Shown piece after piece: positions 7,856 through 51,899 of a stretch of DNA of 64,000 bases (position 1 is its first letter; each line of letters starts with the position of its first letter). This stretch comes from Todiramphus chloris collaris (taxonomy: Eukaryota; Chordata; Aves; Coraciiformes; Alcedinidae): contig JANVCC010000040.1 of NCBI GenBank assembly GCA_025345505.1, forward strand, positions 8,207,655 to 8,271,654, read 5' to 3'. The notes under the pieces are model-generated. The model worked only from the letters and a program-made list of their open reading frames with translations. It was not told the DNA's origin and searched no databases. The position numbers and the translations under genes are program-made.

Positions 7856-8206
7856 TTAGGAAACATTTCTTTACCTGAGAGGGTGGTCAAACACTGAAAC
7901 AGTCTTCCCAGAGAGGTGGTCAATGCCCTAAGCCTGTCAATGTTTAAGAGGCATTTGGACAATGCCCTTAATAACACAATTTTGCTTTCTAACCACCCTG
8001 GAGGTGTTTAAAAAAAATGTGTAGATGTGGCAGTTCAGGATATGGTTTAGTGGTCCTGATAGCATCTAGTAGGTGGTTGGACTTGATGATCTTGAAGGTC
8101 ATTTCCAACCTTAGTGATTCTATGACTTGGTCAGCCCTGAAGTGGTCAGGCAGCTGGACTAGATAACTGTTGTTGAGTCCCTTCCAACCGAAATAGTCTA
8201 TTTTTT
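7856..8206 (+). mobile_element. CR1 LINE 3' end, interrupted by a second CR1
   Basis: The first part (7856-7990) contains the sense-strand CR1 3' motif gagggtggtcaaacactg, then cttcccagagaggtggtc and a segment ending near ttaataac. The last part (about 8126-8206) carries the matching terminal piece of the same subfamily: ggtcagccctgaagtggtc, ggactagataactgttg, cccttccaaccgaaatag and a tctattttt tail. Between the two halves lies a complete 3' tail of a different CR1 type, listed separately. The outer copy is about 215 bp without the insert and holds no coding capacity. It is in the same orientation as COL23A1. Subfamily names cannot be assigned without a repeat library. Confidence 0.85.
7991..8125 (+). 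mobile_element. CR1 LINE 3' tail inserted inside another CR1
   Basis: The segment starts at ccaccctggaggtgtttaa and runs through atgtgtagatgtggca, atggtttagtggt and ggttggacttgatgatct to tccaaccttagtgattctatga. The final gattctatga is one unit of the 8-bp terminal repeat (ATTCTATG type) that ends most bird CR1 subfamilies. It is about 135 bp and severely 5' truncated. It splits the surrounding CR1 copy, so it must be the younger insertion. Confidence 0.82.
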
Positions 8207-11052: not shown

Positions 11053-11494
11053 TCACAGACTCAGAATGGTAGGGGTTGGAAGGGACCTCTAGAGATTGAG
11101 TCCAACCCCCCCTGCCAAGCAGGGTCACCTAGGGCATGTCACTCAGGAAGGCATCCAGACAGGTTTTGAAAGTCTCTAGAGAAGGTGACTCCACAACTTC
11201 TCTAGGCAGCCTGTTCTAGTGCTCTGTCACCCTCATAGTAAAGAAGTTCCTCCTCATGTTGAGGTGGAACATTCGATGTGCAAGTTTATACTCATCGTTC
11301 CTTATCCTATTTCTGGGCACTACAGAAAGGAGATTGGCTCCTTCAATTTGAAACCCACCCTTTAGATATTCATAGATATTAGTAAGGTCCCTTCTCAGTC
11401 TTCTTAAGACTAAACAGCCCCAGTTCCCTCAGTCTTTCTTCATAGGGGAGATGCTCAAGTTCCTTGATCATCCTCGTAGTTTGCCATCGGACTC

Positions 11495-12515: not shown

Positions 12516-12520
12516 AAATG
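12483..12520. repeat. 14-bp direct repeat at the CR1 5' junction
   Basis: The 14-mer atttttcaaaaatg occurs at 12483-12496, inside CR1 coding sequence, and again at 12507-12520, where recognisable CR1 similarity ends. The period is 24 bp. Confidence 0.9.
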
Positions 12521-29353: not shown

Positions 29354-29443
29354 TTTTTTTTTTTTCTTTTCTTTCTTTTTTTTAATTTTTTTTTCTTTCC
29401 CCCCCCCCCCCTTGTCTTTTTTTTTTTTTTTTTTTTTTTTCTG
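29354..29443. repeat. Long pyrimidine tract (T/C), with C13 and T24 runs
   Basis: About 90 bases are pyrimidine on the + strand, apart from two A and one G. It includes a C13 run (29399-29411) and a T24 run (29417-29440). Tracts like this are prone to length variation and sequencing error. Confidence 0.9.
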
Positions 29444-30805
29444 CTTTCAGGGTTCATTTTCATCTGTTACACTTTCATATGTGGTTAACTGCCCTTCCAA
29501 ATGCTTCATTTAGCTCCATTTCAGAATTCAGTGACAACATATCTATATCCTTGCAGGACTCTCAAGATGTTTACTTGAAGTACTTTTTAGATCCTCAGGT
29601 GAAATTACATCCAGTATATCAATAGTTTAACAGTGTATCCTGAAATCCAGAAAGCAAAATTGAAAGCAGGATTCAGCTTATTGTGTTGCATCTTAAGTCC
29701 AGGCCTGATTTTAGTTAAAAACTTGGCAGGATGCAGCAATAGGCATCGTATATTAATCAAAGAAAGATGAAGGCCAGCCCGCTGTCCTGCTTTGGGGAGA
29801 GACCTGCCTTTTTTTTTTTTTACAAGGTAGACTTGGAGAGTTAGTAAAAGTATTTGTGCAGTACCTGGAGCATATGATTGAGAAAATAGTGCTATTTGGA
29901 CAAAATGGCTCATAAAATGGTTCAATCAAGCCTCAAACGGACACGTTTAGGAAGTGAAATCTTAGGTGTTGATTCTGTTTTGTAAATCTCTTGTCCCTTA
30001 CTGTGACAAAAGGATACACTGTCTTTCCCCAGCCCATGTGAGTGCAGCTTCAGTCCACACAGACCCACCACTGCGCTTGTCATTAACACCAAATCAAACC
30101 GAAGTCGGATGCTTTTTGTGCTTCACTTTCAAATGTCTCTGGCTTTATTTCCTCCTTCCACCATGTTTTGCACCGGTTTTCTCAATCTTGGACACTTTAA
30201 AATACAAGTGGAAACTGATGGTAGTATCCAAACTTAGTAACATATTGGATAGCTTTGCTCAGAATTATTGCATCTTTCTTTTCATCTTATCTCAGTATTT
30301 AAAGAACAATACCTCATCTCCGCTAAATCTTTGAGCATCTCCTGGATATTGTTCGGTAAGTTAAACTGGCAACCCAGCGTTTGTTTCGCTGCTCTCTAAA
30401 ATGCACAGATGATAGGAACTCAAGTATCTGGAGTTAAAAGTTGCACCTTTGGGATTGTCAGAAATAATTTACATTTCCTGGTTGATCTTTGAGATGTTTT
30501 TCACTGCTGAAAAAAAACCAAAGCAGTAACCGAACAAAAAAAACCTGCGTGTCTCCCACACTGCTACCTTCCTACCCTATTGATCCTGCTTTTTTAGCTT
30601 TAAAATGGGAAAGAATGCACTTAGCTGTCGTGTCAAAAGATTTATAGACCTATTGCTTTATAGAGTTGAAAATGGTCTAAGTACCATCTGAAAGATGCAT
30701 TTGGCTGTTTGGTAATGAATTAAGCATCTGGAAGAAGCAGCTGAGCAAAGGCAGTCACTTCATTATGGCTTTTTGAGCTGTTTGCAACACTGGTGATCCC
30801 GATAC

Positions 30806-30843
30806 AGCTATTCATCAAATAAAACGAGCTATTCATCAAATAA
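30806..30843. repeat. Two-copy direct repeat, 21-bp period
   Basis: The 17-mer agctattcatcaaataa is present at 30806-30822 and 30827-30843 with four bases (aacg) between. Confidence 0.95.
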
Positions 30844-32774
30844 GACACATCCAGTAAGCAAATGAACATGGTTAAACAAATGACAGTGGTGATTTTGGTA
30901 ATTTGAACGTTTACTGTGCATTTGCAGGGCTGCACGGTGTACACTGCACCTTGGATAGCTGTTGGCTGAGCCGCGTGTTTGGAAGCAACTCATTGCAATG
31001 TGTTGTCACAGGAGAAGACTTTGGTCTAAAATGAAGTTGTTACTGAAACGTTCCCCAGATGTGTGAGCGATACATCATTCTCTCTTTGCACTTGAATAAT
31101 AACCACCATTGCCACTGAATTCTGGGTCAGAGCAGGCCCAAAACATGGTCGGGACTGGGCTGTAACAGAGTTTGGCTTTACACCTTGTGTGACTGTTGGC
31201 TTGTGCTGTTTCATGAACTGCGCCTGTTCCCCACCTTGTGCCAACCACCTCCACGGCACAGCGTGTTCCAGAGAAATGTCAGCATGCATTCTGGTATCTC
31301 AACTATGTTTTTATACAAGCTGATATACCCTCCCCCCGCCTCCCCTGGTCTTCCTACAGCTGTTTTATGCATATAAAACATTGCTAGCAGTATATTTAGC
31401 ATCCAGCTTCCCAGCCTGGGGCAAGTTTTCCTTTACCCTGACTCTGATCTCTGCAGTCTGGTCACTTAGGACTGGGCATGTCCAAAGAGAGAGTTTGTAT
31501 CTCTCTGGCTAAGTATCTTTGGATTTGAATAGTCTTGCCTTCTGATGGCAGTTGTAATTAATCTCTGAGGTGGGCGGCCTTTTATATTTCATGGAGTTGC
31601 CCGAAGGCTTGTGGGATTGTCACCTGCATCCAGCTTGAAAGTGCTGGTGCTCTTTGATTTTATTCTATTTTGTTAATATATTTTTTTAATCAAATGTCTT
31701 TCCATTATCTCCTGCTTATTAATTGTATTGGCTGGAAGCCTAATTCTTTAAACAGAGACACAAATGCTGCTCTTAAGTTAGTCATCAATTGCTTTTATTT
31801 ATCAGAGCTCGACAAGTGGCTGTGTAGACCTCAGTTAGAAATTTTAACTGCAACTGCCTCAGCATATTTCTGCTGGAAGCAGTGCAGGTCAGATACACGG
31901 CAGTAAAAAGGTTTATATTGTTTTGATCATTCACACTTGCTACAGGAAGCACTGTGTTCTTTCTATGGAGTGGGTATGACTGTAGCATGTGCTGGTTCTA
32001 TCTATATAATGGAAACTATATATTCCATAAAAGCTCATGTATTTATTCCTTTCTTGGAAGAATCTCAGGTGGGAAAGCAAACTGTTTACACACAGCAAAT
32101 CTAGTGTTTGCCCAGGGTCATCAGGGACAGAAAACGTTTGTACTTCTAATTACATGCTCCGTTAAAATGAGGAGAAACTCAGTGGTTAACTCTTCAACAT
32201 GGTGAAAACTCGAGGCCTCAATATTGCATTTCCACAAACAACAAAATCCGAGGCTTCAAAAAAGAAATCCTACTTTTTCTGTCTGCGTCTCTTCTGTAAA
32301 AATTTTTCATCACTGATTTCACTGCATTATCAGAACTAAAATGAGAAACACTGCTTATGAGCAAATATAGCATTTGAATATGGGCCAGGAATTCCTTTTA
32401 CAGTATAAGATTTTGTGTGAAATAAAAGCCAAACAGCTGCTCACAACTTATGTCAGAATAAGTGATCTAACGCTATTGCTCTAGTCTCAAATTTGAGGCT
32501 AAATTGTTTCTTTGCCAAAGACCTTGTGCCAACTTACCTGGTCCCAATTTGTGAGAACAAAGTACATTGTTTCTGCTGCTCTGAAAGTGAAATCATTTTA
32601 TTGGACATTTTTTTCATTATCATTTCAACCGTGATATGGGAAGCCCCTACAAGTTTGAGAGACTACTTCTCACCTCCAGTCCTCCAGGATATATTTCAAG
32701 TAGGAAAAAAATCTCCTAGTAAGGCTAGTACAGCATGATGTATGGAGATATTTTCATATACGTAAAGACTCTTT

Positions 32775-32889
32775 CTTTTTATTCTTTTTTTTTTTGTAAG
32801 TGTAATTGGCTTTTGATTTATTTTGCTCTTTTTTTTTCCCTCTCAAATCTTCTATTCTCTTTTTTTTTTTTTTTTTTTTCCCCCCTCCT
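32775..32889. repeat. T-rich pyrimidine tract
   Basis: This is a series of T runs separated by short mixed pyrimidine stretches, with a T20 run at 32860-32879 followed by a C6 run. It is intronic low-complexity sequence with no retroposon body recognised beside it. Confidence 0.85.
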
Positions 32890-35800
32890 ACTTTTACTGT
32901 TCTCTTCTCATCAGATGCTCTCCAGTCTTTCCCTGGGTCACCCTGATACAGTGTGAAACTTCTTCCCAAGGGCTGCCTGAGAAACCACTACAGCCTGAAC
33001 TGGAGACCACCACGCAGAGCAGAACATTAGCCATGATTAAGTCTTTTGGCATCAAACTTTCCTCAGTTCTTCGGAAAGAACTTAAGACAAGGCAGATATT
33101 CCCAAATGATTTAGCTAAAGATTTCTAAGGACTTTGGATGCTCCTAAATGCACAAGATAACCAGAAATTAGTATATGTGGGGACAGTTGATTTTTCAGTT
33201 GTCCCATTTAAAGAGTTGAGGTGCACTGATGTGATAAGCACAATATAGAAATTTGTGCACAAAGAAAATGGGAAAAATCCCTGAAGTCCCCTGGTCTGTC
33301 TCTTAAATGCATTAAATTGTCCACTCAACTTCCATGGTGCTGTTACTTGTGTTTCTTCTGGCTGTTCTTCCATCCCACCAATGGTCAGTTAAAAATGTTT
33401 TCCTGGCAGTAAACAGCATCATTTTGCATCTGTTGCCATTGTCCTCAGACAAATCCCAATCTCTGCAAGGTCACAGTGATATTAATAATAACTCTTTCTT
33501 GTGTGCCGAGTGGTATTTTAATAGCATTGCTCAGAGTATCTCTCTTAGTGCTGCCCCACTAACACATTTACTGGGAGAATGGAATTCCTGATAGCTGAAT
33601 CACATCGTCTTTAAATTACATTGTCAAAAAGATCGTTTATCTTGTGTGTATTGTGACTGACACAAATAGTAAATAGAATAACAGGCAGTCAGTCATCGTC
33701 TAATGTACTAGTCTGTGTTGCAGCAAAATCCTCTCCCGTAACTCTCAGTTGTGGTTGCCTGGCTTCAGAGATAACTGCACATGTTCGTGCTACTAGATGA
33801 TCCCACGTGGTACTGGGTGAGATGCAGTGTTCTGAAGCCATGTGCCCCATCCCTGCTCAAGCAGCCCTTAAACAGCTATGCCAAGAGAAAGGTCATTCCG
33901 TATGCAAGAGAGGACTTTTTCCTCCTTGTCTTTTCTGTCAGCAACTGTCTGTCTGCAGATGGTCTGCTTTCTTAGATGGAATTCCTGTTGGATAATTCAG
34001 GGCAGTATGAATTCACACACCTGTTTCATTATGAGTGGGAGGACGATCATCTCTGTCCATGTCCCATCCCTTAATTGTTGAAGACAGTGTGGTAATTTCA
34101 CAGGGTATTTTATACTGGGTGAAATTATTTTGTAACAGCCAACTTTGTTAATATCCAGAGTTTATAGGTGTTTGTTTATGTGACACTGCTGCCATTGGGA
34201 TAAAATTACACCATTAAGTAGTTTACTTAATTTTACAAGATTTCATTGAATGATAGCTTGTTACTCATCGCCTGGTTGGATCACTGGAGGCTGCAGGCTT
34301 TTTGGAAGCTACACCAACATCATACTATTAGGTTTTCAAAATCAGTTGGTTGTTTATGCTGAACTTGGCCAGGAGCACACAAACACCAAATAGCTGCTGC
34401 AGTTGTTTTGGAGCAAAACTTAAATCCTCAATGTTGTATTCTTCAGTTTCCCTTGATCTGTAGCATCTCCTGTAATGTGCCTGTGCTGGTGGTAGCTTCT
34501 TGGTACCGAGATGTAGAAGAAAATATCCCTCACTTTGTCACTTTATCCCCACGTTTATCCCACATGGAAGGTATTTTGTTGTGTGGGTTTTGTTTCACTA
34601 TGATGTGCTTTTGCTCTGTCTTTTAAAGCATATGGCATCGTGGAGCCGTGGTCAGGGGTTAATGCACATAATGGAAATAGAAACGGCTCCGACTGAATTC
34701 ATATTTGTTTGACAGTCTATTCCTGATCTTCTCTCTTTATAAAGATAATGTTGCTTCTGGGACAAAGTGTAGAGAACAAGGTCTTGAAAGAGGTGGAGGA
34801 AATGCCTTCTGCATGCCGAAAGCTTGAGGGAAGAAGAGGATTAAACAAAAGAAAAAAATGAAATGTTTCTTTTGAAGACCACAGGAGGAAGAATTTAACA
34901 GCTTTTTTTCAGAGACGTTGAAAGAGGGACATGTAATAGTGTAGTGCTGGATGAGTTTTGAAACAGGAAAACTGTGATTTTTATGTTAAACTTGATTTGT
35001 AACATGGAAGCAAAATCTGTTGGTGATGTTAGTGTGTTGGTTGTGGGCTTGCCCTTAGGATGGGCTTGGCATTGTCCTTGGATGCTTTATGGTCTGCACA
35101 TGGCAGCTTGCACTCTCCTTTTTAGGAAGCTGAGAAACAATAAGGGTGGAAAACTCTGCCAAAATGAGCATTAACCATAGACTATGTCCACAAATGTGTT
35201 CGTGTAGGAATAACATTTAAACACAGAGTATGTGATTCTTTGCTTAAAGTCTCTAATGTATATACTTCTCTGTAGCTACTGGGATCTTTTCTGGGTGTAG
35301 AAGAAACTGCATTATTCAGCTGCTCTCAAAGTGTTCGTTTGCTGGTTTCTCTTCTTTTGCAATTTTTGCAAGAGTTTTGAAAATGACAAAGAATGTTTTG
35401 TTTTGTGGGGGTATTTTTTTGGTTTGTTTTTCTGTGGGATCCTGGCTCTGGAAGGGCTAATTCTGATTGTAGATTATACACATTAGCTTTGAGTACTTCC
35501 GTGCTCCAAAAACACAATTCATCAAAACTCAAGTACTTTGTGTCAGATCTGAATGTTTCACAAGAGATTTTGTAATCCAACATGTCAAACTTGTTTAAAT
35601 GTGAGATTGTAACTGAAAACCAAAGGAAGCAATAAGTGCTTTGTTATCTTCCTTACCTTACAGAAGTGTCTTGTAGTTCTTGGAAAAAAGAAAATTTCCT
35701 ATCTACAAGAAATACACGTCTACCTCATGCTGTAGAAGGGCTCCCAGTCGATGCATGTGCTCCTTGTGTTTGTAAACAGCCTGGTGTTTCATGGGGGCAA

Positions 35801-36168
35801 ATTTAGTGACTCAGCAGTGCAGTGCTCATCTCCATCTGCTGAATAACTCCCTGCAACTTGGTCACTGGTAACTTCTTCCTGCTTCTGAGAGGTAGCTTCG
35901 TGTTGGCAATTATTTGAGCAAGAAAAAGCCTAATTTACAAATTCTTTCCAAAAAAGCAGACCTTGAGGGCATCTGCTTTTTCATTTGTTCCAGACAGTGA
36001 TGCTTTAAGTTACCTAGTGCTAAATAGAAGGTTAATGAATTTCAGTCAAATGGTACTGGAGACTTCAGTGTGAGTTAGGCTTCACTTCTGTTCCCCAGCT
36101 CTACATGATTTTCTAGCTTGTATCTTTAGCAAAAAAACACGAATCTGTGTCCATTCTGGCCTCAGGTT

Positions 36169-36408
36169 GCATCAGGGGAGGTTTAGGTTGGATATTAGGG
36201 AAAATTTCTTCCCTGTAAAGGGTTGTCAAACCCCATCCCCGGCTGCCCAGGGTAGTGGTGGATTCACCATCCCTGAACATATTTAAATGCCATGTAGATG
36301 TGGTGCTGAGGGACTTGGTTTAGTGGTGAACTGACAGCGCTGGGTTAATGGTTGGACTTGATGATCTTAAATGTCTCTTCCAACCTAAACAATTCTGTGA
36401 TTCTATGG
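36169..36408 (+). mobile_element. CR1 LINE 3' tail, sense orientation
   Basis: This 240-bp fragment shows consecutive CR1 3' landmarks on the + strand: ggggaggtttaggttgga, tattagggaaaatttcttcc, a diverged caaaccccatccccggctgcc, tggtggattcaccatccctg, atgtagatgtggtgctgagg, ggacttggtttagtggtg and ggttggacttgatgatctt. It ends with a gtgattctatgg terminal repeat. It is the same general subfamily type as the insert at 7991-8125. No coding sequence remains. It lies about 4 kb upstream of the 45-nt COL23A1 exon. Confidence 0.93.
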
Positions 36409-39400
36409 TTTTCCAGATTCATGTTGGTAAGACTCTGCCTGACTTGCCTAACCAGTAAGTTTCTGAAAAGAGGAGACTATGACTTGCTTATGGTTTTTTT
36501 TAACCTTTGTAGGTGTTTCAAGTGTGTAGGAGCATATGGGTATGATGCATAGAGATTGTCACCATTCTCATAAAGAAACATGGAACCAAATGTGTGTGTT
36601 TGTGCACAGACACTTTCTGAAAGATTTTCTAAGTTGTTATCTCTGTCCGGGACTTGTACCGAAGCAGCTGTCTTGGTGCAGATGTGGAAAACTGAAATCT
36701 GCTGTGAAAACCTTTCTACCTTGCATATAGCAGCCCCTGCAGCTGCCAAACTATGCATCCTCTTGTGTTTAAAAATAGAGGGGGGTATACTGCATACATC
36801 TGCTCCTGCCCTGCAGCTGTGCCAGTATATTATCTGGAAATGACCTGAGTAAGACCAGCCATAACAAAGGGGGAAAAAATCCCATGTTTGATGTAAGTGC
36901 AATTGTGGCTTTATTCCAGTCACTTCTTAATTTATATCTCAAATTCAGTTTATCTTTGTGCCCTGGTGACTAAACAAAAGAGCTGTATGCATTTGACTGT
37001 TTGAAGAAGCTGTCTCTGGGGGTGTGTGGGGGAAGGGTGGGGAGAATTAAACGGTGTGGGGTGGAAATCCAGAGTACTGAGCAAGCAACACCTTCTTGGT
37101 TGTTTTACATGGATCATAATCAGCTCTTTTGTTTCAGCATGTGTGCATAGATCAGTTCACTCTTTGAATAAGCCTGATTTTTTTTAATTTTTTTTTCTTT
37201 TCCTTTTGCAACAAACATTCTCCCGGGGAAGGGGAAGACCCTCCAAGAGGGTCTTGGTTGGCTACAGCTAAAATCAACACTTAAACACCCTAAATATGTC
37301 TCTAGTCTTGAAACGTTATGTCCTCTTGAGCAAATATACCTTGTGTGCAAGTTTCATCTGTGCTGGTGAGCATTAGATTTGGGACTTGGATTTGCTCTGC
37401 TGTGTCTTGTTGGGAGGGCTTAAGACTGTGCCCCTCCTCCCGCAAGCTGTGTCCCCATTCTCTCATTCAATATTCCTCATTTTAGCTCTGCTGTAGGTAA
37501 AGGAGAGTTTGTGACTGTAAACCTTTAGTGCTGAGGTTCTGAGGTGCTTTAGCACCTTAAATGTTGCCCCTTTATTATTCCAATTGTAACAGCAATATTT
37601 CAGTTTGGTTCCTGGAGAAGGAGTTTTCTTCCCCAAGGTTGAGCACAGCTCCCTGACACACTGTGAGGAGGATGCTTGTGTGCGCCCCTGCTCAGAAAGA
37701 TTGTGTGGAGCTATGAGAAGGAAAACAATTTTTTGCTTGTTCTGTATCTTGAAAGCAACTAGATCGTGTATTGAACTGCCAGGAACTTTCCACAGCTAAC
37801 AACCAGAGGTTGCTTTCTGGGTGGCTTTTCTGCTAACATAAAACGTAGCCCAGGATTTCAGAGAGCTTTGGGGTACTTGGGCCAAATTTGAAATGAATCT
37901 ACATATTATTTTTTTATTTTACTTGGAAAATTTCTGTAGACTGCATGTGCTGCATGTTTCCAATCTGCGTCTGGTATTTGATTTGAATCTTTGGGTCCAC
38001 TGGAATCCAAAGCCAAAAAGGTTCACACAAAGTGTTGTGACCCAAAACTGTTTAATCTTAGATCTGCAGTCTCAGAGCCCGCAGCCCGACTAGAATACCT
38101 GATGAGTATCAGCTGAGCAAGCATTGCAGAATTTAACTTCTGCCCATGAACCATAAACCTTTTCCCCAGGGAACAAGAAAGTAAATTGGCCTTTGTTCAG
38201 GAACAGCCAGCTAGACCGGGGCTGTGGGTTCCTCATGCTCAATACCAGATCCTGTGTTACGCTGCTGCGAAGTTCCCCTTCCTTCTAAGTGAAGCCATAT
38301 GAAAAAAAAAAAAAAAACAAAAAAAAAAAAACCAAAAAAAAAAAAACCAAAACAACAAAACCCAACAAAAAAAACCCAAACCACACTTTTCTAAGAGTGA
38401 CTGAACCAACCAATTTGTTCAAGCTATTCTTCTGGTTGACTCATTTTTAACTGAAGAAAACACTGATATGTCGAAGGCAACTCAAAAAATGGCAAAAAGG
38501 AAGAAGGGGAAATAGAATCTAAACCATTACAAGATCAATAAAAAAAATAAGTGCAAGCATCTGAGCAGGTAGACCCTCCAAACTTAATGCCATGTTAGAG
38601 CATGATGAGTTAGATACAAGATCATCTAGAAACTAAGACCCTAAAAGTGAGCTCAGTATTTATGATTCAGAGGTCACAACGTTATCAGCTCACTGTATCA
38701 TGTTTGCAAGGGGGGGAAAATCCTCTGATTTAAAGATATCCAGTAAGACAGGTCTTCCTTTTACTTGGCCAAGGTTTTCACTTGCATGTTGCTCCCAACT
38801 GCTTCTTTGTATTAACATATCTCCAAAAAAGTCCCCGAGAGTCTCAGCAGCACATGGCTTGAAGAAAGAGATGGGCACAGATTTATGGTTAATATATCTG
38901 TGCATATATTCTCAATAAAAAAGGATGATACGTAGTAGGGGTGTAAGTGAAAAGGTAGTGCAAGCCTGCTGCCACAAGTTCTTGGGTAAGAATGTGCTTC
39001 ATTGGCTTAACGTTTAAAAAACGTTGCGTGTCTTCAGTGAGGTTTTGCTAGGTTGTAGTATCAGGCTCTTTTTCTTTCTGGCATTTAAAACTCTCTTTAT
39101 CCTCGATGAACATCGATTTACCTCATGAAGCCCAACAGCAAGGCAGGCAGCAATTTGCCCATCAAGCCAAAGGGACAGAAGCCAGCCATATAGCCTCCCA
39201 AGCCCTGGGAGTAGTGTGGGTCAAGGACCACATTTGATTTAATTATGGGGGGTAAAAAAACCCAACATTAAGCGTCCATAGTGCCATAGATCTGTTTTTC
39301 TGGTATTGCTGGGTTACAGAGTTCATTGATCAGCCCAATTTGCAATTGCACAATTTGCAATGGGTAAATTAGTTCAAACAGGAGCAATTTAATGCACTGG

Positions 39401-40432
39401 GAAACAAGTACGTGGTTTGGGCTCTTGACAGTGTTTTATGTGAACTATAAAGTGATGATGATTCTCAATATTTCATTTACTCACCCACAGCAGATGACAT
39501 AAATTGCTGCTACCCAGCAGAACAGCTAAGTCAATTGAGTGTATTTGCTGTGAACTTTTTACCTTGTTTCAGAGTAGCTACCCTTTAGATGCACTCATCA
39601 GCTCTTCCTCGTAATGTTTCCAAATAGCGATATATTTCATTCTCTTTCTTTGTCTGGGGTTACTAAATCCATCATCTTACTGGAAAGCTTATGATGTTGT
39701 CAGAAATTGCATATTATGCCCTGGATTAGGGCTGTTTAGCTTGAACATGACAAGTTGTTTAAAAATGGACTGGCTTATGCTTTTTATTCCTTCTCTCTAA
39801 AACTGTCTTTCATAACCGTGTAAATAAAGAACTCCCAGAACTGATACAGCAGACCTGGCATGGTTAGATGAATAGAAGAAAAGGCTCAGCTATTACCCAA
39901 TAGACATTAATGCAACATAAATCTTAATTATATTGAACAAGCATCAAACTGCAAGGTCTTGGGAGATGGAGTCATTAGGAAACAGTTTACAGTGAACATT
40001 TATCTTTAAACAAATTCCCAGGCCTCCTTAATTGCCTTTGTAGTCTCTTAAAGAGGTTGGAAATGAGAGGTGCAATATGGATGCACTTTCTGCCCAGCTC
40101 TTTTAGCAGTACCCAAAGCTGATCCCCTGGTGGAGGGTAGAAATTGCTGAAATGGTAATTCCCAGTTATGCGGACCATGGACTTAATGGCATCTGCACAG
40201 GTCAGGGTAGCAGATGGCACTAACAACTCGTGGGTTACTCTTGCTCACTGTCCTCTCGCTGCAGGCAGCTGAGAGGTCTCTGTCCTTCTGCTCACCTGTA
40301 TCTGCATCACAGGATTGCAACTTGCAAGTCCTGCCTGAATGGATACCACGTGTGACATGATGATGTGGTGGGTCCCCTCCTGAACTCGCTGCCTGGGGGC
40401 ATCTCTAACACTCTGCTCTCTGCTTTCCACAG
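36409..40432. other. Intron stretch upstream of the 45-nt exon
   Basis: No further exon was found. It holds a G-run cluster at 37018-37042, an A/C-rich tract at 38301-38385 and a small TTGCAA-type repeat at 39336-39360. It ends with the pyrimidine tract and AG acceptor of the collagen exon. Confidence 0.55.
38301..38385. repeat. A/C-rich low-complexity tract
   Basis: A runs of 10 to 16 bases are separated by single or paired C, grading into aacaacaaaaccc-type units. No recognisable retroposon precedes it. Confidence 0.88.
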
Positions 40433-40477
40433 GCCCTCCGGGGAGGCGAGGGAAGCCCGGCCGGCGCGGAGAACCCG
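40433..40477 (+). CDS. COL23A1: COL23A1 collagenous exon (probable exon 3), 45 nt
   Basis: The exon is bounded by a strong acceptor (pyrimidine tract ending ttccacag, with a likely branch-point ctaac at 40405-40409) and a gtaagc donor. It starts with the last two bases of a glycine codon and ends with the first base of the next, the split-glycine phase seen in non-fibrillar collagens; 45 nt is a classic collagen exon size. It encodes (G)PP GRR GKP GRR GEP (G), five Gly-X-Y triplets. The Arg/Lys-rich GRR-GKP-GRR run followed by an acidic triplet matches the start of the first collagenous domain of human collagen XXIII alpha-1 as I remember it, with Asp changed to Glu. COL23A1 is a type II single-pass transmembrane collagen whose ectodomain can be shed and which forms homotrimers. 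The preceding exon, which should end in the cysteine-containing linker and the first G of this glycine codon, was not found in the window. COL13A1 and COL25A1 are the paralogue alternatives but fit less well. Confidence 0.88.
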
Positions 40478-41454
40478 GTAAGCATCGCCTTCCCTCACGT
40501 GGGACTGTGAGTTGGCACAAACATAGAATCCCCACAGCCGTGCTAGGTGGAGGTGTGCGCTGGCTTGTTCCCTGCGTACGGGCACGTCTGTACATTGCCT
40601 GCCGGTCCTACACATGTGATGTCTGCATTTTAGGCTTGGGGGATAACCAAACGTCTAGTGCCACCAGCCTTGGGTACATCCCAGGAACACTGATTGTGCC
40701 CTTAGGCCAGATGAAAGCATAGAACAGTCTCTCTGGGAACTTTTATTTGAGCTGTTTGCTTTAATTATATGCCTCTGTCATTTTGGTAGCTGGTGGTGGT
40801 TGGTTGCTTTTTTTATTCCTGTCTTGTGAAATGGAAAAGCACCAATGCTATTTCAGCTGGTGCGTTTTCCACAGCTCTGAAGGGCTGTTGGAAAGGGGAG
40901 GGATGTGGTTGACTTTGCTCTTTCTAAGGAACAGTCAGACAGGAATGTACCTCAAAAGCCACATGGGGTTTGCAACTGCCTTTGTATGTCAGAAAGCAGC
41001 AGATGAAATCCTACACTTTGCAGGTCTCAAGTTTTTGAATGCTAAGAGAATGAATGGGGACCAGGTAGATTTCTGTTTAGTGGGGAGGTGCTTCTTTGCT
41101 GCCTCTTGCTATAGCAAAAAGATGGCTGGGTATTGAAAATGGGCAGCATAATTTTCTGATCACCAATATTTTAAACAATGTTTTTAACTCTGAGGAAAGG
41201 AAATTAGGGGGTTTGTGCTGCAGACCATGATCTGATCTCCATGGAAAAGGCAAGCAGGCATTTCCCTTCTCTCTTCCACTGATGGTATTTCACAGTGTGT
41301 TAGTTGTTCTCCGAGATATTTTTGCTCAGGGATTACTTGTGGCCAAGGGATGGGTACTGCACTCATGGGGATGATTGATGGATCCCAGGCCGCTTCACTG
41401 AACCCTGTTTTCCTGACAGTTGGGCTGTAGGAATAACCACCAGGTAGCTTTGTC

Positions 41455-41475
41455 TTTTTTTTTTTTTTTTTTTTT
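41455..41475. repeat. T21 homopolymer
   Basis: An uninterrupted run of 21 T lies in the intron after the 45-nt exon. Confidence 0.9.
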
Positions 41476-44400
41476 AATTGGGTTTTAAATATTGTGAAGG
41501 GCTTTAAGAAGGACAGTGAAGTACAGCATTCAACAAAGGGCAGCTGGTGAGGTCAGCCAATGAATTTGGGTTTTATATGCAGACATTTATGCAAGTGTTG
41601 TCTGAAATGTCTCTCTAGCCTGTATGAAAATCTGGGAGGTAGTGCTGAACTTGAGCATACCCTTGTCCTTTGCTCCCTTCTGTTTCATGTAAGAGCTTCT
41701 GAAAAGCGATGTCCACAGGTGCCACTTGAGCATCCCTCTGGTGAAGCAAAAGCTGACATGGAATGCAGGACAACAAACATTATAAAAGGAAGGGGAAAAA
41801 AAAATGATCAATCATTAATCATTAATAACAACTTATGATCTTTTTTGAACTTTTCTGCAACTGTGGAGGAAAATTGAGGAGAGTGCAGCAGACACCCACC
41901 TGCACACACAGACACTCAATGGGTCACACCAGTTAAATCCATCTAATGCAACACAGCCCCCGTGGATTGCTCTGCTGCAATATAGATAGAAACACGGAGA
42001 GCAGACATCCATCTGTATATTGGTTTTGGCCGAGCTGCCAGATGTTTGTTTTCACAGATAGCTTGAATATATATTTCATTTTTGTTTGAGAACCTGACCA
42101 CATATAAACCAGGTCCTTGTTCCTTTGATGCAGCTGATAAATGTGAATAAAACTTTGTTTGTATAGCATGACAGTGTCCATCCCCAGGGACCCTGCATGG
42201 TTATAGCTTTACAGCCTCCAGACAATTGCTGCTGCAGGGCCAGAAGGCTCAGAGCTGGTCTCAGCCCTGCCAAGGGGAGCATTTTTTCTGGTAATTGTTG
42301 AGCTGGTCATGTTGAAAAACTTTTTCTGATTCATATTGAAACTTCCAACATATATCTCTCAGAAGCAAGCAGAGAAACATTTAAGAGATCATTCTGTCCC
42401 TTTTCAATCTCACCCTGCTGATTTAAACCAAGACTCAGTTTTACTTTTTTCTTTTTCTGTGATGGATTCAGATGAAAAAAAAAAAATTAAATGATCCAAC
42501 AGCTCTGTTTCTCTAAACTAAGAATTCATCATCCTGAGAGTGCTCTGAGACAACCACTCTCTACCACAGAATAAGACCATACCATAAACCATTTCTAGGG
42601 GGGAAAAAAAAAAAACCAACAACTATTTGGACTGTTTGGAAGTGGGGCAAGCCTGGCTGCATGTGCTGAAATGTGGGAGTGAACCACCATTGCCACCTCC
42701 TGATTCCTCACCAAGGGAGTTGCTGAGGGCAGGCAGTGGGTCCTGCCAGGGACCTGCCTGTGGGCTTGGCTTTGTGTCTTTGGACACAGAGAAGCATAAA
42801 TGAAGTAAGCTTTCCCCCTTGGGGAGCCTGTGGGAAGGGGTGCTGTGCTAAACCCTAGCCTTTCCTTGTGCTTTGCACTTTTGGCAGCAGCTCAAGCTTC
42901 TCATGGTGACACAGTTGTCCTCACTGTCATCTCTGCCCTGCCCTCAAAGTCCAACACCAGGTACCTGAGGGAGCATTTCCGCTGTTGTCAGCCCGTGTAA
43001 GCAAACTAGGGAGTAATTGAATCAAGAGGCTTCATCGGATCCGTTTTATTTACTCTTGGTGTCATCTGGTCCTGTGGGAATTGTGGCTGTTGCAGGAGAA
43101 CAGCACATGTGTCCTGGAGCTGGTCACGGGGATGGAATAGCTGTGTGATCACCACCTGAGCACTATGAGCGTGCAAGAGGTTACTTTTAAAAATTAATTT
43201 ATTCTGCTGTTGTTAGACGAGGCCAGGAAATTCACACCAGCATCCTCGCCGGGCAGGTGTCACTCCTGATCTGGCCCTTCAGTAGTGTGGTCTGGTCTGG
43301 CATGTCCCAAGCTCTGTCCCATTCTGTCGGGACCCACAGGTCCCATCATCCCTATTCCTGCATGTGAGCATCAGTGGTTTCTTGCACAGTTAGAAAACAA
43401 GCACAGCCTTAAAGAGCCACATGCTCCTACCCATGAAAATAGTTGGTAAATAAATAGGAAACTACATTTGAATCCAATGTTATATGGGATTTTCAGCTTC
43501 TTCTGAATGTGAGAGGAAGGTTTGCAGCACTAGCTGTTGCGGTTGGTCCTGACATCCAGCCTGCACATCTCAGATACAGTTCCCTTCCCATGCTGAAGTC
43601 AAAATCATGTTTAATGTCACATTAGCTTGTTTTTTCAGTGTGATATGGCCCACTGAGGACACAGCTCAACTGTTGTAGTAAGTGTTTGTGAAATAACATG
43701 GATTTTAGCAGGGGACCTGGGAGGTTTTGCTTCCCAACTCTTGATGCCAGCTGGTGCTAAGTGAGTAGGATGGGGTATGACCACTCAGACCTCTGGGGGC
43801 TTTATGTTTATTTTTTTATTCATACTGGGGTGTTCCTGAAGAATAGATGAATCAGATCCAGGATTTGTGAGTTTATTCAGTTTAAAGTCTCTGCACAACT
43901 ACTAGATGGTAGTAGATGATGGCTCGTGTGTCTCATACTGACATGCTGCTTTCTTCACCTGGCTTGAAGATTGATCCAAAAACTGTTCTAAATCTCAAAA
44001 ATCCCACAAGAAAAAACAAGAGAAAATACACCTGAAATGTTAAGCCTGGGAATTCTCAGAGTATGTCTCCACCCTCCTCACATGAAGCAAGGACTGGTTC
44101 TGGCCATAAGCACTCAAAGCTGGTCGCTGTGGAGTTGGATAGCACCTGTTTGTCTCAACTGTGCACAGCTTCAGCAGAAGGAAATAAATGTTGTCTGGTT
44201 TAGGCACAAAATTGCTCTTGCAGGTGGGCCTGGGAGGGCATTTTTTTGATGAAGTGTTATTTCATTGGAAAATGTTGACTTGGCAAAATTGCTGCTTCTG
44301 GCAGTAAAAGTGTTTTGTTTACAGATTATTTTTTTTTTCCATTTCAAAAAACACTTGTAGGGAGAATGTTTTGAAATTGTTGAAATGAACTAAAAGCCTC

Positions 44401-45057
44401 CTGCTCCACCTCCCGTGATTTTTGGTTCCCAAGTTTACATGACACTATCACTGTCTCTTTAATTTCAACTTCCAACAAAGTTTTGATTCCAAGTTGTTTG
44501 TTTGTTTTTCTTACAGCTATTCTGTTTGCAGAAATATCCTGATTTGGAGCAGGGAAGAATCTAAAGCTTTTTAAAGAACAAAAGCAAAGCAATTTCTCTG
44601 CAGGGCAACGTTATTTCTCTCCCCGCTCTACACGTAGCTACACCCCTATTTTACCCATTAAGACCCTTTCAAACCCCTAGATCATGTGCTTGTATTTACT
44701 GGGGGCCGGGGGTTTATTGCTCCCTGTATTTCTTATGATGAGTTGCACACACATACCCTCGTACTTGAGGACTGCTTTGGTTTCTACTGAGCTTGAGGAA
44801 AAAAATCTAATCTAATCTGTCCCATATTTGTTCTCAATAATGAGCTTCTCTGCTAGAAACGCTAGAACATTCCCTGTGCTCACCCGTGCTGAGGCATGAG
44901 TAGGAATTATTGAGGTCAGCAGGCAGTGACAAATACTCTTTTTTTTTTCAGACTGACGTAGAGCTGATCTCAGTGACGACTTATGACTGTAGCAGTTGTC
45001 CTCCTTCCTTGTTGTCCTTGGCTTAGTTACTCCCCTTATTCTGGATTAATAACTTTG

Positions 45058-45172
45058 TGCACACATATATGTACATATTGTGTGTGTATACATGTGTGAG
45101 ACATATGTGTTTATATAGATGTATATATGTATATATACATACAGTTTTTAATATATATAATTTTTTTTACAC
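45058..45172. repeat. TA/TG/CA dinucleotide-rich microsatellite region
   Basis: About 115 bases are dominated by alternating purine-pyrimidine steps (acacatatatgt, gtgtgtgtatac, tatatatgtatatatac). They contain a perfect 16-bp palindrome, tatgtatatatacata. Confidence 0.85.
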
Positions 45173-46969
45173 ATCTTCAAGTGGCCCCAGATGTGTGTAT
45201 GCTACCTTGGGGATAGGTTCTTTGCCCATTAAGGGCAGCAGCAAAGTACCCTCTGATTCTTCCTGAGCTATTGGAGAAAGGTCTTTCTGGTTTGGTATCC
45301 CCCTCCCAGCAGTGTGCTCTCCTGTCATGGCAGGAAAGCTTCCGTGAGAAATGATGTATACATGAAACAGAAATGGTTGCTTATCCCCAAATTCTCAAGT
45401 GACAAAAATACTTGGAAATAAATGACTGTGACGTGTCATTTCCCATATGTTTGTGTACTGACAGGGATGATGCCACTCTGACCTGCTAGGTCTTTGGGTA
45501 CACAAAATAACATTCATGTTAGCCAATCAGGAAATCTGGGTCACTTATTTTTGATGAGTTCCTGTTTTCACCTCCTGCTAGCACAGCTCTTCATGTTCTT
45601 AAGGAATCTCTTGGTGTTTCTAAGTATCTCCATGCCCTCGCAGGCTTGGGTTCTAGGTGTTCGCTCCTGGCAGTATAGCAGCACTGTATGCTGCAGATCA
45701 TGGAAAAGCTCAGCATGTTTCATGCACGTCAGTCGGAGACCCAAACCTGTGCATTTGCAGGTTATTTTGTCTTTCTCCTCTTCCTTCTGGAATAAGCCCC
45801 CAAGTTAATTTGTTACAGAGTTTTAAATATCTAAAGGCTGTTTCAAACTTTTATTCATTAATAATAAGAGTTTCCAAGTGGTTTCATCCTTTCTTCCAAG
45901 ATCTCAAATGGATTCTCACTAGTCAGAATTATTACCCATAAATTCTGGAAAATTTCTCTGAAACTCTTGTGCAATGTGCCCACTTTGAGGAGATAGCTGG
46001 GCAGCCCCCAAGTACATAATTAACTTCTTTATTGGTGCCTTGAAAAATAGTTGACTTTCTTCCATAGGAAACAAGTGTGCTGTGGCTAGGCTATTGAAAA
46101 ACATGTTCAGCAAACCACAAAGTTCTGTTGTTCTTAGGAGGAGGAAAGATCAGTTCAGTAGTCTTGACTTTGTGCCTTAATGAAGATTTAGCTAAACCCG
46201 TTTGGTCAACAGTGCAGTTAAAGAGTAGTGTAACTCCACTGGTGCAGAGAAGAGCATCCCATGTTGCACAGACAGATCCCCCCCATACAATTTTGATGCT
46301 TGTAGTTGAGAGGAAAATATTTTAAATGAGCACTTGCCTGCACGTGTTGGGGAAAAAACAGTAGCTGAGAAAAGAAAAAAGGCAACAAATTCCAAGGAGA
46401 TTATAATTGGTACATGATTGAAATCCCATATTAAAATAATTTCCTGACTGCTGCTTATTCGAGACTTAGTTTTGACTTCTCTACAAAAGGGCTTTTGTGG
46501 GTAGCTCGCCGTAAGTGAGTTAATAAATCAGGTTTGTGATTCTCAGTTAATAAATTGGCATAGAGCCATTGACTTCTGTATTTATAGGAAATTAAACCAA
46601 GGAAAGTGTGCTAAGAGCGTATGTGCATTCTAGCGCTAAAGAAAATAGGCTTCTGGGCATGGAGGGAGGTTGGCTCCTCCCCGCCGGCCGGGCACTTGGC
46701 TGGGTTGTGTGCAGAGCTGACCACACTGGGCTGATGAACACAGGTTAACAGGCTAATTCTTGGCAGCGGGTGCTGCCTGTCATTATTCGCTTTCAGTCCT
46801 CATTCTTGGGCTCCTCGTGGGTTTTGTTATTCAACTTTTCAACGTTTTCATTTTTAAGCAAATTTTTAAAACCTAGAAAAGACATTAGCTTGAAATATGC
46901 TTCTTGTTTTATATTCTTGAATAAGATGAACCAAGCAATCTTATTTTTTTCCCCTCCATTGTAATCATT

Positions 46970-47001
46970 CCCCACCCCCCACCCCCTTTTTTTTTTTTTT
47001 T
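46970..47001. repeat. C-run / T-run tract
   Basis: Runs of C separated by single A residues are followed directly by a T15 run. It is low-complexity intronic sequence. Confidence 0.8.
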
Positions 47002-48009
47002 ATTGTGATTAGTTTCTGGTTTTGATCAGGCAGGAAATGGAGCATGAAGAAGCCCCAAACAGAGAGCTATAGGCTGCCTTGTGAACAGGAGTGAAATGTG
47101 GATTGCATTAGATAGTGGCTCAGCGTTCACCTCTGCGTAGCACCAGCCTGAGCGAGCAGTGGGAAAGCTGCAGAAATCAGTATGGCAGGGGATGAAGTCC
47201 CCAAACTGCAGGGGACTATAGTGGATTTTTTTAATGGTTCCCCCCCCCCCCACTGCCATTATTCACAGCTTCAGACTGTGACAGCTGTACTTAAAGCCTG
47301 TTGTAGGTGTAATGTGCTTTTCCCTTGGGTCTAAGGCACTGTGCATTAGCCCACTGTCTGCCTCTGAGCACAGCAAAGCCCTCGAGCAGGGGTCACATGG
47401 AGATGACACAGGACCATAGGCTTGTGTGCTGTGTTTTGATGTCAGGGAGGGATGGGGAACAAATGACAGGGATGTCTGGAACCTGTGGCAGCTGTAGCAA
47501 CATCCTTGCCAGGTGCCCCTGGCGTTGCATTGCTCCTTTGGCTTCTGCAAGAGTATCTCCAGCTCCTCTTGCAGTACCTAAAGGAAAATAAGCTCTATGG
47601 TGAAAATGCAATTTTTGCTCTACAAAATTCCAGCCGTATCTCTGCTTTTTGCTGGTGCTGCTCTGCAATTGCACGTGGTGCCGCAGGCCTTGAACACGGG
47701 TGATGCTTTGCGATGTGTCTGGGGTCTCATGGAGTGAGAGGGAATGGAGTCACACTGGGGAAAAAATGGGAAGAGGAGGAGTATACACCCCCCGTAAGTA
47801 CAGATGTGCCAGCAGCACAGGTGAGATGGTCCCATAATGGGAGAATGTGGAGGGCATTAAGCATATCTGAAAAGTCATCCCATTGGAACTGAATGGGAAA
47901 GTATTAAATTGTTTTGGTTTTGATTCCTGATATGTGCTGTTTTATCAGATTATGCTTTTTCTTTGCAATTAAGTGACTTTTTTTTCTTTGTTTTTCTTTT
48001 GTTTTCCAG

Positions 48010-48017
48010 GACCTGCA
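48010..48017 (+). CDS. COL23A1: COL23A1 microexon (probable exon 4), 8 nt
   Basis: This 8-nt exon (gacctgca) lies between a very strong pyrimidine tract (about 47977-48007, ending ttttccag) and a consensus gtaagt donor. A plausible branch-point adenosine is at 47976 in aagtgac. The first two bases complete the glycine codon opened by the 45-nt exon (G|GA), followed by CCT and GCA, giving one Gly-Pro-Ala triplet. The exon ends in phase 0, exactly what the 27-nt exon downstream needs. Human collagen XXIII has Gly-Pro-Pro at this place as I recall. Because 8 is not a multiple of three, skipping it would shift the frame for the rest of the collagen. It is too short for ordinary ORF or similarity searches. 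The call rests on splice signals, phase on both sides and the expected residue count, which all agree. Confidence 0.82.
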
Positions 48018-51000
48018 GTAAGTATCCTGGATTTTACTGTTGGATCAACAAAGTTAAGGCTTCCCCTTCCCCCCTCCCCTGCCTTTCAGTGTCATTGCAA
48101 AAGCACAGCATTTTTTGGTAGAGGTGTGTCTGGAAGTAAAATTGGTACCAGATGCTGTTGTATTTTATTTTTTCAGGACTGTAGACAAATACAGAGGGGG
48201 AGAAAAAGTTTTAAAATGTTTAACTTGCTGCCCTGAGGGACTTCCAGTAATTTTAAACCCAGAAAATATTCAGTAAAAGAAAGTTTTCCCTTTCAAGTAT
48301 TCTTTAATCCCCTTTCGTTTAGCAGAAAGAGTGCTGTACTAATATTTTAACATGTTAGTGGGTTTATTGGTTCTAAAGCTCTCTCTTGCTTTTCTTAACT
48401 GTTGTGTTCCCATCATTTCAGAGGGGTTTGGTAACCTCACAAGGTCTTCTAGAAGGAAAGCTGTAGCCTGCTTGCTTCTCTCTTTGAAGTCTTTGGTAGA
48501 ATAATGAGCATTCCTACCAATGCAACCAGAAAATTTATGCAGGATTTGGTGTTTAATGGGGTAATAGTTGAAAATGTGTGTCAACTCCTCCTTCCAAATG
48601 TTCAGACGTGCTTTTGACTGTGCCACCACCATGTCCAAATCTGTTCTCCCACTGGTTTTGGAGTGAGAAAACAGTGTTTCATTTGTGGCCTCCTAGTTGC
48701 TGAGGGATAGTTAAAAAGAAGTTATGGGCATTAGGTAGTTCTGGGTTTCTACCTTTCTTGCCCCAAAGGAGGAGAAGAAACACAGGCTGTTTGCAGCCAC
48801 ATGTTTCCTCCTCCATCCTTGCAGTAACAGATGTTTCTTTATGTTGCTGTCTTCATGTAGAGCATCACTGGGTTGAAAAGTGGGCATTTCAGGAAAAATA
48901 GCTTTGCTAACTATTCCCAGGTGCATTAATTTCCAGTTCCGTAAACCTGTTTAAAAGCCAAAAGGTGACAAGAAAATGCATGGGGAGTGTTGAGGCTGTC
49001 ACAAGTCTATGGCTTTGGTTGTCCTTGGATCAGCAGCGCTGCCTATGGGTTTCGTTAATGGCCTTCAGCTCTCTGAAATTTTAATTCTATTGCAGGTTCA
49101 TTTTTTAATGTAAAGACTTAATAGTCATTTGAGCAAAATTATTATTTGGCCAGGCTTTGAAGGAGCAAATTGGGAAGACTTAACAGCTTTAGGTTAACCG
49201 TCTGTACAGGAGATCCAAATGGATTTGTTCTAAAAGTTGTGCCCAGTGTTAGCAATAAAGCCAAGATTCTGGCTCAAGAAATGCAAACAAATGGTTTTGT
49301 CTTGCTTGTGTTCAGACATGTAGCCTGTCAATAAACTAATTTTCCTGTAAACATTCTGTGATCAAATACTGCAAGGCAGCCTCTCCAACCCACACAGTAA
49401 AAGCAATTCAATGGGTTTTTTTAAATATTAGTGCCTTGAGCATTGACTGTGGGAGCACCGCTGGGAGATGAATTCCCACCTGCCTGGCCCAGAGCTCAGC
49501 ACGGCTCCCCAGCAGCACAGCCATTCACCTGCTTCACCAAATCCTGCCCTGCCATTGGGCAAGATCCCGAGGCTGGGGAGAGCATCCCTGAGGCTGAGCG
49601 CAGGGACGTGTGTCTGAGGAGCCCTTTTGGGTGCTAGAGCTGGTCCTGACAGGGTTTCTGCCTGGTGACACTATGGGGTTTGGTTTGGTTTTTCTCCCCC
49701 CTCTTTGAAATTCCTGCAATTTGGCTTAATTACTAGAGAAAAAATTCTCACCCAACAGTACGTTACAAATTAAGAGGATACTGCCTATTTAAAATTCTAT
49801 ATACCCATCTCTTAAGGGATGTTTTCCTCTTGGTTAAAGTACTTTGAGTTATTTCAGCTGGATTTATTTAACCATTTCAGTCCTGCTCCTGCTCAGAGGC
49901 TATTACCAGCCCACACGCAGCCAGCTGGGTTAGGCTTCCTCACGTGTGCGCTCTGTTCACTTTTATTGTATGTGATTCGGCGTAGGCAACATATGGCACA
50001 CTATTAATTTTTCTTTGTCTCTAGTTGGTTTCATTTCCTGGTTCCCACGGCACTATTGAATTGCAGACGAAGCACAGGGGATATTTAACACAAACAAGAC
50101 TTTTTTTTTTTCCCCTTGCCTTTCTTTAAAAGACAACTCCTGGTTTGGTTCGTTTGTTTAAAAGAAAAAAAAAATCCTGCATTTTTAGTGTAAGCAGCAT
50201 TTGCCAGACACTACTTTAGACATAATATGAGTCCTAGAACCCACAGAACCACAATATTATTTTATTTCAACAGTACTGTATTTAACTCTATTAGTTTCTT
50301 CTGTTTCTTGATTTTGGCCATAAGGAATCGATTACCTCTTATATGTACAGCATCGCACTTTGCTAAAACTGTATCCTCAATTCTCTTGTTCCCTAGTAGC
50401 AGTTGTTCTGGTATTTTATTTTTTTGGCTGTCATAAGCTAGTTGTGTATATGAAATTATTAGAATTTGTGGTACAGGATTTGTGGCTGTTGGATGATTGA
50501 TCGTCCTGTCTGTGAGTAAGGGGTAATCTGCTCAGATGTGCTGTAAAACCTCTGTTTCAGAGGGTATTAAAATCACATGCTGGGTAGGAAATTTCTACAA
50601 TTGAAGGATAGACTTACCACAGACTGTAATTATACATTTACAGTCCCAGATATTAACAAACACTTTATGTATTAACATGCTGGCTGGGGAACTCACCAGC
50701 GAGTGAGGGCTGGGAGTTGCAAGTGTTTCCTATTTATCTGTGTGTGCTCCAGTGCCATACGTCTCCATAAAAATCTCACCGTACACTTTATCCCAAGACT
50801 GTAATTTGTTAAATAGGTGGTTGTTGAAGTCAATATTGTTTCTGGATGAATCAGTAGTGCTGCAGGAGGCATTAAAAGCAGCGGGGGCACTTAGCAAGGC
50901 AGGAGAACCACCGTACTTGGTATGAAGTGGGCTGCCAGAGCTATTTCATGCTGTAAGAAATGTATGAATCTGACTGTATATCCACAGCATGCTGACATAC

Positions 51001-51872
51001 CCTATGTTTATGGTAGCAGATGACATTGCTGTACCAGACACACGCTTTACTGCCTACTTGTGTACCAGCTAATACTTAACAGTTCCTTCCCAGGAATCTG
51101 CCTTACGTCTGGCTTGCAGCAGGCTCCTTTTGCTGTAGCTCACAGTACATTTAATGGCAGCTCGAGCATTAAATGCCTTTGGGAGCCCCCCAAGGAGAGC
51201 AGAAAAGGTGAAATAATCCTGAAGGGGTTGTGTTTTATTCTGCTGATCTTTCAGTTGTTACTAGCAATTTAAGTAAGGTCTTCCCCTGTAGCATAAGCTT
51301 TTCTTTCTGCTTCATCACAAACTAAAGCAAAGCTTACAGGTGAGCTGAGCGAGCTGCATCCTGCAAGGAAATTAGTGGATCTAAGAGGGAGAAAACGTCA
51401 CTGAATCTGATGCTGGAATAGGAGTTTGAAGCTCAGCGACTGCCCCTGGGCAGATGGGCTGTCCTGGCTGCTGGCTCAGCAGCGCTGCAGCCTCCCCAGC
51501 CTCTCCCCAGCACTCGGCTGTTCCTGAGCCTCTCGGTACACGGGTCCCAGGGCAGGTTCATGGCCACAATCGAGTGTACCATGAACACCCTTGGCTTCAG
51601 GGGCAGCAGGGACTGAGCACAGGCAGCAGGGATGGGGGTGAGTTGGTAAAAACTTTGGTAAGTAGCTGAAGAGAAGCACAAGATGAAAGCCGGGGGAAAA
51701 TATGGCATAGATGTGACCTTTGTGATTGCCCCAAGAGTATTCTCTGGAGAGAGTTTAGCCCTGGGGCCAACCTGGGGAGCCAATGGCCCCATCTCCTGCC
51801 TGCTGCTATGTGTTGTCATACTGCTATGGGTGCCTTGACTGACTTGTTATCTCACTTGTTCCCCCACCACAG
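48018..51872 (+). other. COL23A1: COL23A1 intron between 8-nt and 27-nt exons (3,855 bp)
   Basis: This complete GT-AG intron is in phase 0. It starts with a consensus gtaagt donor and ends with a modest pyrimidine tract (ttgttcccccaccacag). I saw no transposable-element fragment, RNA gene or further exon. Short T and A runs occur near 50101-50112 and 50164-50173. Confidence 0.8.
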
Positions 51873-51899
51873 GGGCAGTCAGGACGCGATGGTTACCCG
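51873..51899 (+). CDS. COL23A1: COL23A1 collagenous exon (probable exon 5), 27 nt
   Basis: The acceptor is ccaccacag and the donor is gtaact, which is weaker than consensus because position +5 is C. The 27-nt exon reads in phase 0 as GQS GRD GYP, three Gly-X-Y triplets. This is identical to the corresponding human collagen XXIII segment as I remember it. It follows directly on the Gly-Pro-Ala of the 8-nt exon with no interruption. A multiple-of-nine exon length is typical of collagen genes. The next triplets expected from the human protein (starting GPL GLD) were not found between here and the window end, so the following exon should lie beyond 64000. A strongly pyrimidine-rich stretch (about 51995-52055) sits roughly 100 nt downstream of the weak donor and could bind U-rich-element splicing factors; that is inference. 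Confidence 0.88.

Follow-up and report, generated by a model that had tools for sequence, protein, structure and literature searches.

A predicted 8-nt frame-adaptor exon in the collagen gene COL23A1 of Todiramphus chloris collaris and its counterparts in COL25A1 and COL13A1

The window analysed here, a 64,000-nt stretch of Todiramphus chloris collaris DNA (C24:8207655-8271654, within a 1.17-Gb assembly), holds three consecutive exons of a collagen gene, two longer ones and, between them, one of 8 nt (Table 1). The longer two were the only exons returned when both strands of the window were scanned for Gly-X-Y exons (AG-exon-GT, 24-129 nt, perfect Gly-X-Y, at least three glycines); the minus strand gave no exon within these limits, and a gene on the opposite strand was rejected. 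The 8-nt exon is invisible to such a scan. It fits the definition of a microexon, being internal, at most 30 nt long and bordered by AG and GT. An initial annotation had placed all three exons where we find them, and had read the 8 nt as completing a glycine codon, opened by the last base of the 45-nt exon, and adding Pro-Ala ahead of a phase-0 exon; both the coordinates and the split codon hold. The splice signals need some adjustment from that account. The pyrimidine tract reaches the 33 nt originally given only if the AG is counted, and is otherwise 31 nt long with two G interruptions. The donor, described as perfect, is so in its six intron bases; the exon itself, however, finishes in A where the consensus has G, and the matrix score is moderate. 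An intron that extends over C24:8122134-8248086 accounts, with its 3' part, for the window's initial 40 kb.

Table 1. Features of COL23A1 in the window (position 1 is the first base of the 64,000-nt stretch)
Feature	Position	Strand	Description
COL23A1 intron 2, 3' part	1..40432	+	whole intron ~126 kb; exon 2 outside the window at C24:8122064-8122133
COL23A1 exon 3	40433..40477	+	45 nt, phase 1 to 1, (G)PPGRRGKPGRRGEP(G); also present in COL25A1 of this genome
COL23A1 intron 3	40478..48009	+	7,532 nt, gtaagc...ttttccag
U-rich pyrimidine tract, proposed U2AF site	47977..48007	+	31 nt, 29/31 pyrimidines; AG at 48008-48009
COL23A1 exon 4, predicted microexon GACCTGCA	48010..48017	+	8 nt, phase 1 to 0; completes Gly, adds Pro-Ala
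Donor gtaagt	48018..48023	+	last exon base A, not G; gtaagt likewise follows the 8-nt exons of COL13A1 and COL25A1
COL23A1 intron 4	48018..51872	+	3,855 nt
COL23A1 exon 5	51873..51899	+	27 nt, phase 0 to 0, GQSGRDGYP

Judged by the order of its exons, the gene is COL23A1. When the human COL23A1 protein was compared with the genome, 82 matches were obtained, the best E-values falling to other collagens; four of the matches lie at this locus (identities of 87%, 84%, 54%, and 40% for the N-terminal exon at 8118267-8118647). Scanning 264 kb for Gly-X-Y exons produced 23 candidates, of which 22, namely the window's two and 20 downstream, lie in C24:8248087-8295356; a lone weak candidate at C24:8398060 was set aside. 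Short collagen peptides are ambiguous when placed singly (a greedy one-by-one placement put 13 of the 22 in order), and the assignment therefore rests on chaining them. Taken in genome order, the 22 peptides chained on human COL23A1 with a score of 1445, whereas none of 200 shuffled orders exceeded 1039, and 255 of the 335 residues so placed are identical. The first 13 peptides tile human residues 122-303 with a single gap, residues 136-138 (Gly-Pro-Pro), which is exactly the place of the 8-nt exon. Exons 1 and 2, the window's two longer exons and the 20 downstream exons are collinear with human COL23A1, which bears out the gene name originally proposed. The overall arrangement is that of a MACIT (the collagen XIII/XXIII/XXV group): a signal-anchor exon at the N-terminus, then Gly-X-Y exons with interruptions, collinear with those of collagen XXIII.

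The significance of the 8 nt becomes apparent when the reading frame is followed from the start of the gene. Exon 1 closes in phase 0. Exon 2 (70 nt, C24:8122064-8122133), which lies ~126 kb upstream of exon 3, reads KLGEGLAKLRTVREAPSDCMCPP plus one base, so that a glycine codon is left open after its first base, an offset that the 45 nt of exon 3 retain. The 8-nt exon cancels this offset and returns the frame to phase 0; of the 20 later Gly-X-Y exons, 18 both begin and end in that phase, and the other two, with unrefined ends, begin in it. Joined in this way, exons 1-9 read unbroken and show no gap across the 8-nt exon relative to human COL23A1 (GEPGPAGQSGRDGYP against GDPGPPGQSGRDGYP), with the Gly-Pro-Ala of the 8-nt exon facing Gly-Pro-Pro of the human protein. 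We propose that the exon acts as an adaptor between the split-glycine junction and the phase-0 collagen exons.

Because a direct join of exon 3 to exon 5 breaks the frame, either an insert of 3n+2 nt or a shifted splice site is needed between them. Candidate inserts were scored with splice matrices of generic vertebrate frequencies, so that the ranks that follow are approximate. Within the interval 40538-51852, the acceptor at 48010 ranks first of 772 AGs, and its pairing with the donor after 48017 ranks first of 1,272 AG-GT pairs of 3-30 nt, scoring 22.4; the runner-up, which uses the same acceptor, scores 15.4, a wide margin. The donor taken by itself, with A at -1, ranks 25th of 688 GTs. 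Across the whole window the pair also tops all 7,687 plus-strand pairs, and the best of 5,579 minus-strand pairs is lower at 20.6. Among 3n+2 pairs of up to 120 nt with both scores at least 3, just one in 70 keeps the Gly-X-Y repeat, and it is 48010-48017; relaxing the scores to at least 0 gives three in 313 (reading GGG, GLW and GPA, the first two with weak donors), and relaxing them to at least -3 gives five in 863. None of 300 simulated introns (order-2 Markov, exons of up to 45 nt) produced a candidate with the scores of the 8-nt exon, although 0.143 per intron passed at thresholds of 5/5. In the real sequence of the locus (584,364 bases, both strands summed) 10 candidates pass at 5/5, the 8-nt exon included. 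At least three of the others are parts of real COL23A1 exons, and only 48010-48017 attains its own scores.

One further element lies close by. At 48060-48089, ~40 nt 3' of the 8-nt exon, there is a C-rich, acceptor-like tract ending in cag, third of the 772 AGs in rank, which might serve as a decoy or as an intronic enhancer; the 8-nt exon of COL13A1 described below has no such tract directly 3' of it.

The initial annotation had suggested a comparison with COL13A1, and an 8-nt exon is indeed found in COL13A1 of the same genome, as well as in COL25A1. The genome was searched with an exact pattern (eight pyrimidines, NYAG, GNCCNSCN, GTRAGT), which occurs once, at C38:10626659-10626684 on the minus strand (GTCCACCT); the site in the window is one base off the pattern, from a G in its tract. 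With up to one mismatch there are at least 33 sites, against 11 for a reversed-pattern control, and three of them are the 8-nt exons of COL23A1, COL25A1 and COL13A1. Some of the 30 further one-mismatch sites might be other small collagen exons.

COL25A1 lies on C40, where it was recognised by 93%, 92% and 85% identity at three places and 53% for exon 1 (5701601-5701885). Its 8-nt exon, GACCTCCT followed by gtaagt, lies within the pattern site C40:5568671-5568696 (minus strand); given 33 sites in the genome, 0.003 would be expected by chance on the correct strand of the 188-kb COL25A1 stretch. Within 9 kb the layout is a 45-nt exon in phase 1 to 1 (GPPGKRGKRGRRGETG), the 8 nt, and a 27-nt exon in phase 0 to 0 reading GLPGRNGYP, the same 45-8-27 order as in the window. 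The 8-nt acceptor ranks first of 581 AGs, and the pair third of 1,058 in the 9 kb, the two better pairs sitting inside the gene's own 45-nt exon. As a separate observation, the 27-nt peptide GLPGRNGYP (C40:5566575-5566601, minus strand) is nearer to GQSGRDGYP of COL23A1 than to the peptide of human COL25A1 in the same place, and may represent an alternative exon or a difference between lineages.

The C38 site is taken as COL13A1 because the downstream exons resemble human COL13A1 and because C-terminal MACIT matches (69% and 53%) are found further on, on the same strand of the contig. The exons concerned read GDKGAMGIPGRP and GAPGEAGMSIIGPR, and resemble the human COL13A1 segments GDKGAIGMPGRV and GSPGDAGLSIIGPR. 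The 8-nt exon, GTCCACCT followed by gtaagt, has the best of 1,532 acceptors and forms the best of 2,322 pairs in 20 kb. No 45-nt neighbour was found in the 10 kb upstream of it, and human COL13A1 is not known to have one; the phase of the preceding exon is assumed from the human protein. Downstream, a 27-nt COL13A1-like candidate at C38:10624014 (minus strand) reads GLPGRPWLP, in which Trp takes the place of an expected Gly, and its donor (gtagaaac) is poor. It is perhaps an interruption or a decaying exon, and whether it is the exon that follows the 8 nt is uncertain. Another 27-nt candidate, GLKGQPGEK, listed in the scan that gave the COL13A1-like exons above, has a weak acceptor. In the human COL13A1 protein, the numbering of which agrees with seven of seven published residues, a 27-nt exon presumably reads GPIGLDGKP, and its counterpart is an exon reading GPLGLDGKP downstream of the window. 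A length of 27 nt for this human exon is implied by the variants c.523-1 and c.549+5 (PMC6752227).

These three genes are described in PMC4678570 as paralogues from early vertebrate duplications. Since the same 8-nt exon occurs in COL25A1 and COL13A1, it is probably older, on this comparison of sequences, than the genome duplications behind the three genes. No description of an 8-nt exon in COL13A1, COL23A1 or COL25A1 was found among the open-access matches listed. Human COL13A1 reportedly has exons down to 8 bp. Microexons of this kind are known; what is less expected is that all three collagen XIII/XXIII/XXV genes keep one of 8 nt.

Taking the splice scores, the frame and the sister genes together, we consider that positions 48010-48017 are very probably (about 0.92) the fourth exon of COL23A1, an 8-nt microexon of constitutive type acting as a frame adaptor. 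This estimate covers the exon and its adaptor role, and does not extend to the order of splicing. Among human brain micro-exons of up to 51 nt, the large majority are constitutive with stronger splice sites, and 96% of the constitutive ones carry a U2AF2-like motif, according to PMC4317164; strong splice signals are similarly tied to constitutive inclusion in PMC7821500. The acceptor of the 8-nt exon resembles those of the constitutive class, which have a U2AF2-like pyrimidine tract 10-20 nt upstream, in being strong (first of 772 AGs) and in following a pyrimidine tract (29 of 31 bases), a likeness that concerns strength and composition. The donor has a perfect gtaagt but A at -1, and ranks 25th of 688. 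The flanking introns, at 7,532 and 3,855 nt, are not short, whereas those of constitutive micro-exons tend to be shorter in PMC4317164. The nearest UGC upstream of the exon is at -46, so that the 45 nt before it contain none, and GCAUG is absent from the 300 nt on either side. With the best acceptor in the interval and neither motif nearby, the exon looks constitutive, unlike SRRM4-dependent neural microexons; an exon of the latter type was rejected on the absence of a nearby UGC, on the best-scoring acceptor in the intron, and on a length of 8, which is not a multiple of three. Surprise at the inclusion of so small an exon, as first expressed, is thus overstated, constitutive microexons with strong acceptors being a known class.

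The claim that the exon is essential to the frame stands for its skipping alone, which leads to a stop after 27 out-of-frame codons, but not for the joint skipping of exons 2-4, which total 123 nt and leave the frame intact. As exons 2-4 are together a multiple of three, the 8-nt exon is essential only when exon 2 is used, and the further claim that it must be recognised constitutively is not established. We regard it as likely that the exon is included in essentially all transcripts using exon 2. Should the exon be real but regulated, its omission would serve as an off switch for COL23A1 through the early stop and nonsense-mediated decay. The stop does lie upstream of many later exon junctions, and micro-exons that are not multiples of three may act through decay (PMC4317164); the acceptor strength typical of constitutive microexons and the lack of UGC and GCAUG in the ranges given above nevertheless make such a switch improbable. 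Just as doubtful is the broader idea that the 8-nt exon is a shared unproductive-splicing control point over the XIII/XXIII/XXV membrane collagens, kept since before the vertebrate duplications; the shared ancestry it supposes is well supported, and the exon may have a control role. PMC4678414 describes a muscle COL13A1 transcript, variant 21, without 'exons 3, 5, 6 and 30'; if exon 3 of that numbering were the 8-nt exon, obligatory inclusion would fail for COL13A1.

Skipping of exons 2, 3 and 4 as a block in some transcripts is more doubtful still. An in-frame protein lacking the juxtamembrane segment would result, since exon 1 ends and exon 5 begins in phase 0, and the paralogue COL13A1 is known for complex exon deletions (PMC4678570), but the skip would have to pass over the ~126-kb intron and give up a conserved segment. 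Lastly, the chance that the 8-nt call is a coincidental match, and that another small exon or a shifted flanking site bridges the frame, is very slight: some frame fix is obligatory and two other 8-nt candidates (GGG and GLW) exist at scores of at least 0, but their donors score 2.1 and 0.6 and their acceptors are weaker too, the Gly-X-Y repeat is lost with every other donor up to 700 nt from exon 3 and every other acceptor up to 300 nt from exon 5, and 48010-48017 is the best pair in the window, with an equivalent exon at the same place in the paralogues. A chance AG-8-GT match was rejected on rank, uniqueness and the real-sequence control at the locus, and shifted sites for exons 3 and 5 were rejected over the ranges scanned.

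If the adaptor exon is spliced as its signals suggest, the long U-rich tract would recruit U2AF2 and U2 to it. Eight nucleotides would be too short for U1 and U2 to be accommodated across the exon simultaneously, an incompatibility suggested for very short microexons in PMC10250204, and for that reason intron 3 may be removed first, which would join the microexon and the 45-nt exon into a 53-nt unit, the gtaagt donor of which would then be used with exon 5. We lean only slightly towards this upstream-first order (intron 3, then intron 4), an argument from length. Two observations in the same study count against it: its control microexons divide about evenly between the two orders, and the shorter SRRM4-dependent microexons lean, not significantly, towards downstream-first. 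The upstream-first subset of SRRM4-dependent microexons has stronger acceptors and less UGC, features that the COL23A1 exon shares, but lies on the longer side (PMC10250204).

The three genes indicate that a tiny exon that is not a multiple of three can be frame-essential and old, with the same length and phase change kept in each, and they form a natural set for asking how exons below the size of ordinary exon definition are reliably spliced in. There is also a practical aspect. Trouble with microexons in automated annotation has general support in PMC8831610 (plants) and PMC7821500, and COL13A1 is among the genes for congenital myasthenic syndrome (PMC4678414, PMC6752227). For COL13A1, COL23A1 and COL25A1 alike, it should be checked whether the 8-nt exon is present in gene models and is taken into account in exome variant calling and in the interpretation of splice variants.

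How does the COL23A1 exon compare with known systems? Its closest relatives are the 8-nt exons of COL25A1 and COL13A1, which have the same length, phase 1 to 0, Gly-Pro-Pro or Gly-Pro-Ala and gtaagt; the 45-nt and 27-nt neighbours are present in COL25A1 too, whereas COL13A1 differs, no 45-nt neighbour having been found in the 10 kb upstream. Plant microexons of up to 15 nt (PMC8831610) are alike in not being multiples of three and in causing a frameshift when omitted from gene models, but belong to plants and to unrelated genes. With SRRM4-dependent neural microexons (PMC10250204) the exon has only the size class in common: these tend to keep the frame and to have a weak acceptor and a UGC close by, and the COL23A1 exon has none of the three. 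The constitutive vertebrate micro-exons of Li et al. 2015 (PMC4317164) and the 'included' clusters of MicroExonator (PMC7821500) are the nearest general class, sharing a strong U-rich acceptor, coding sequence and a conserved gene; relative to them the COL23A1 exon is at the short end, its flanking introns are long, and its inclusion is predicted.
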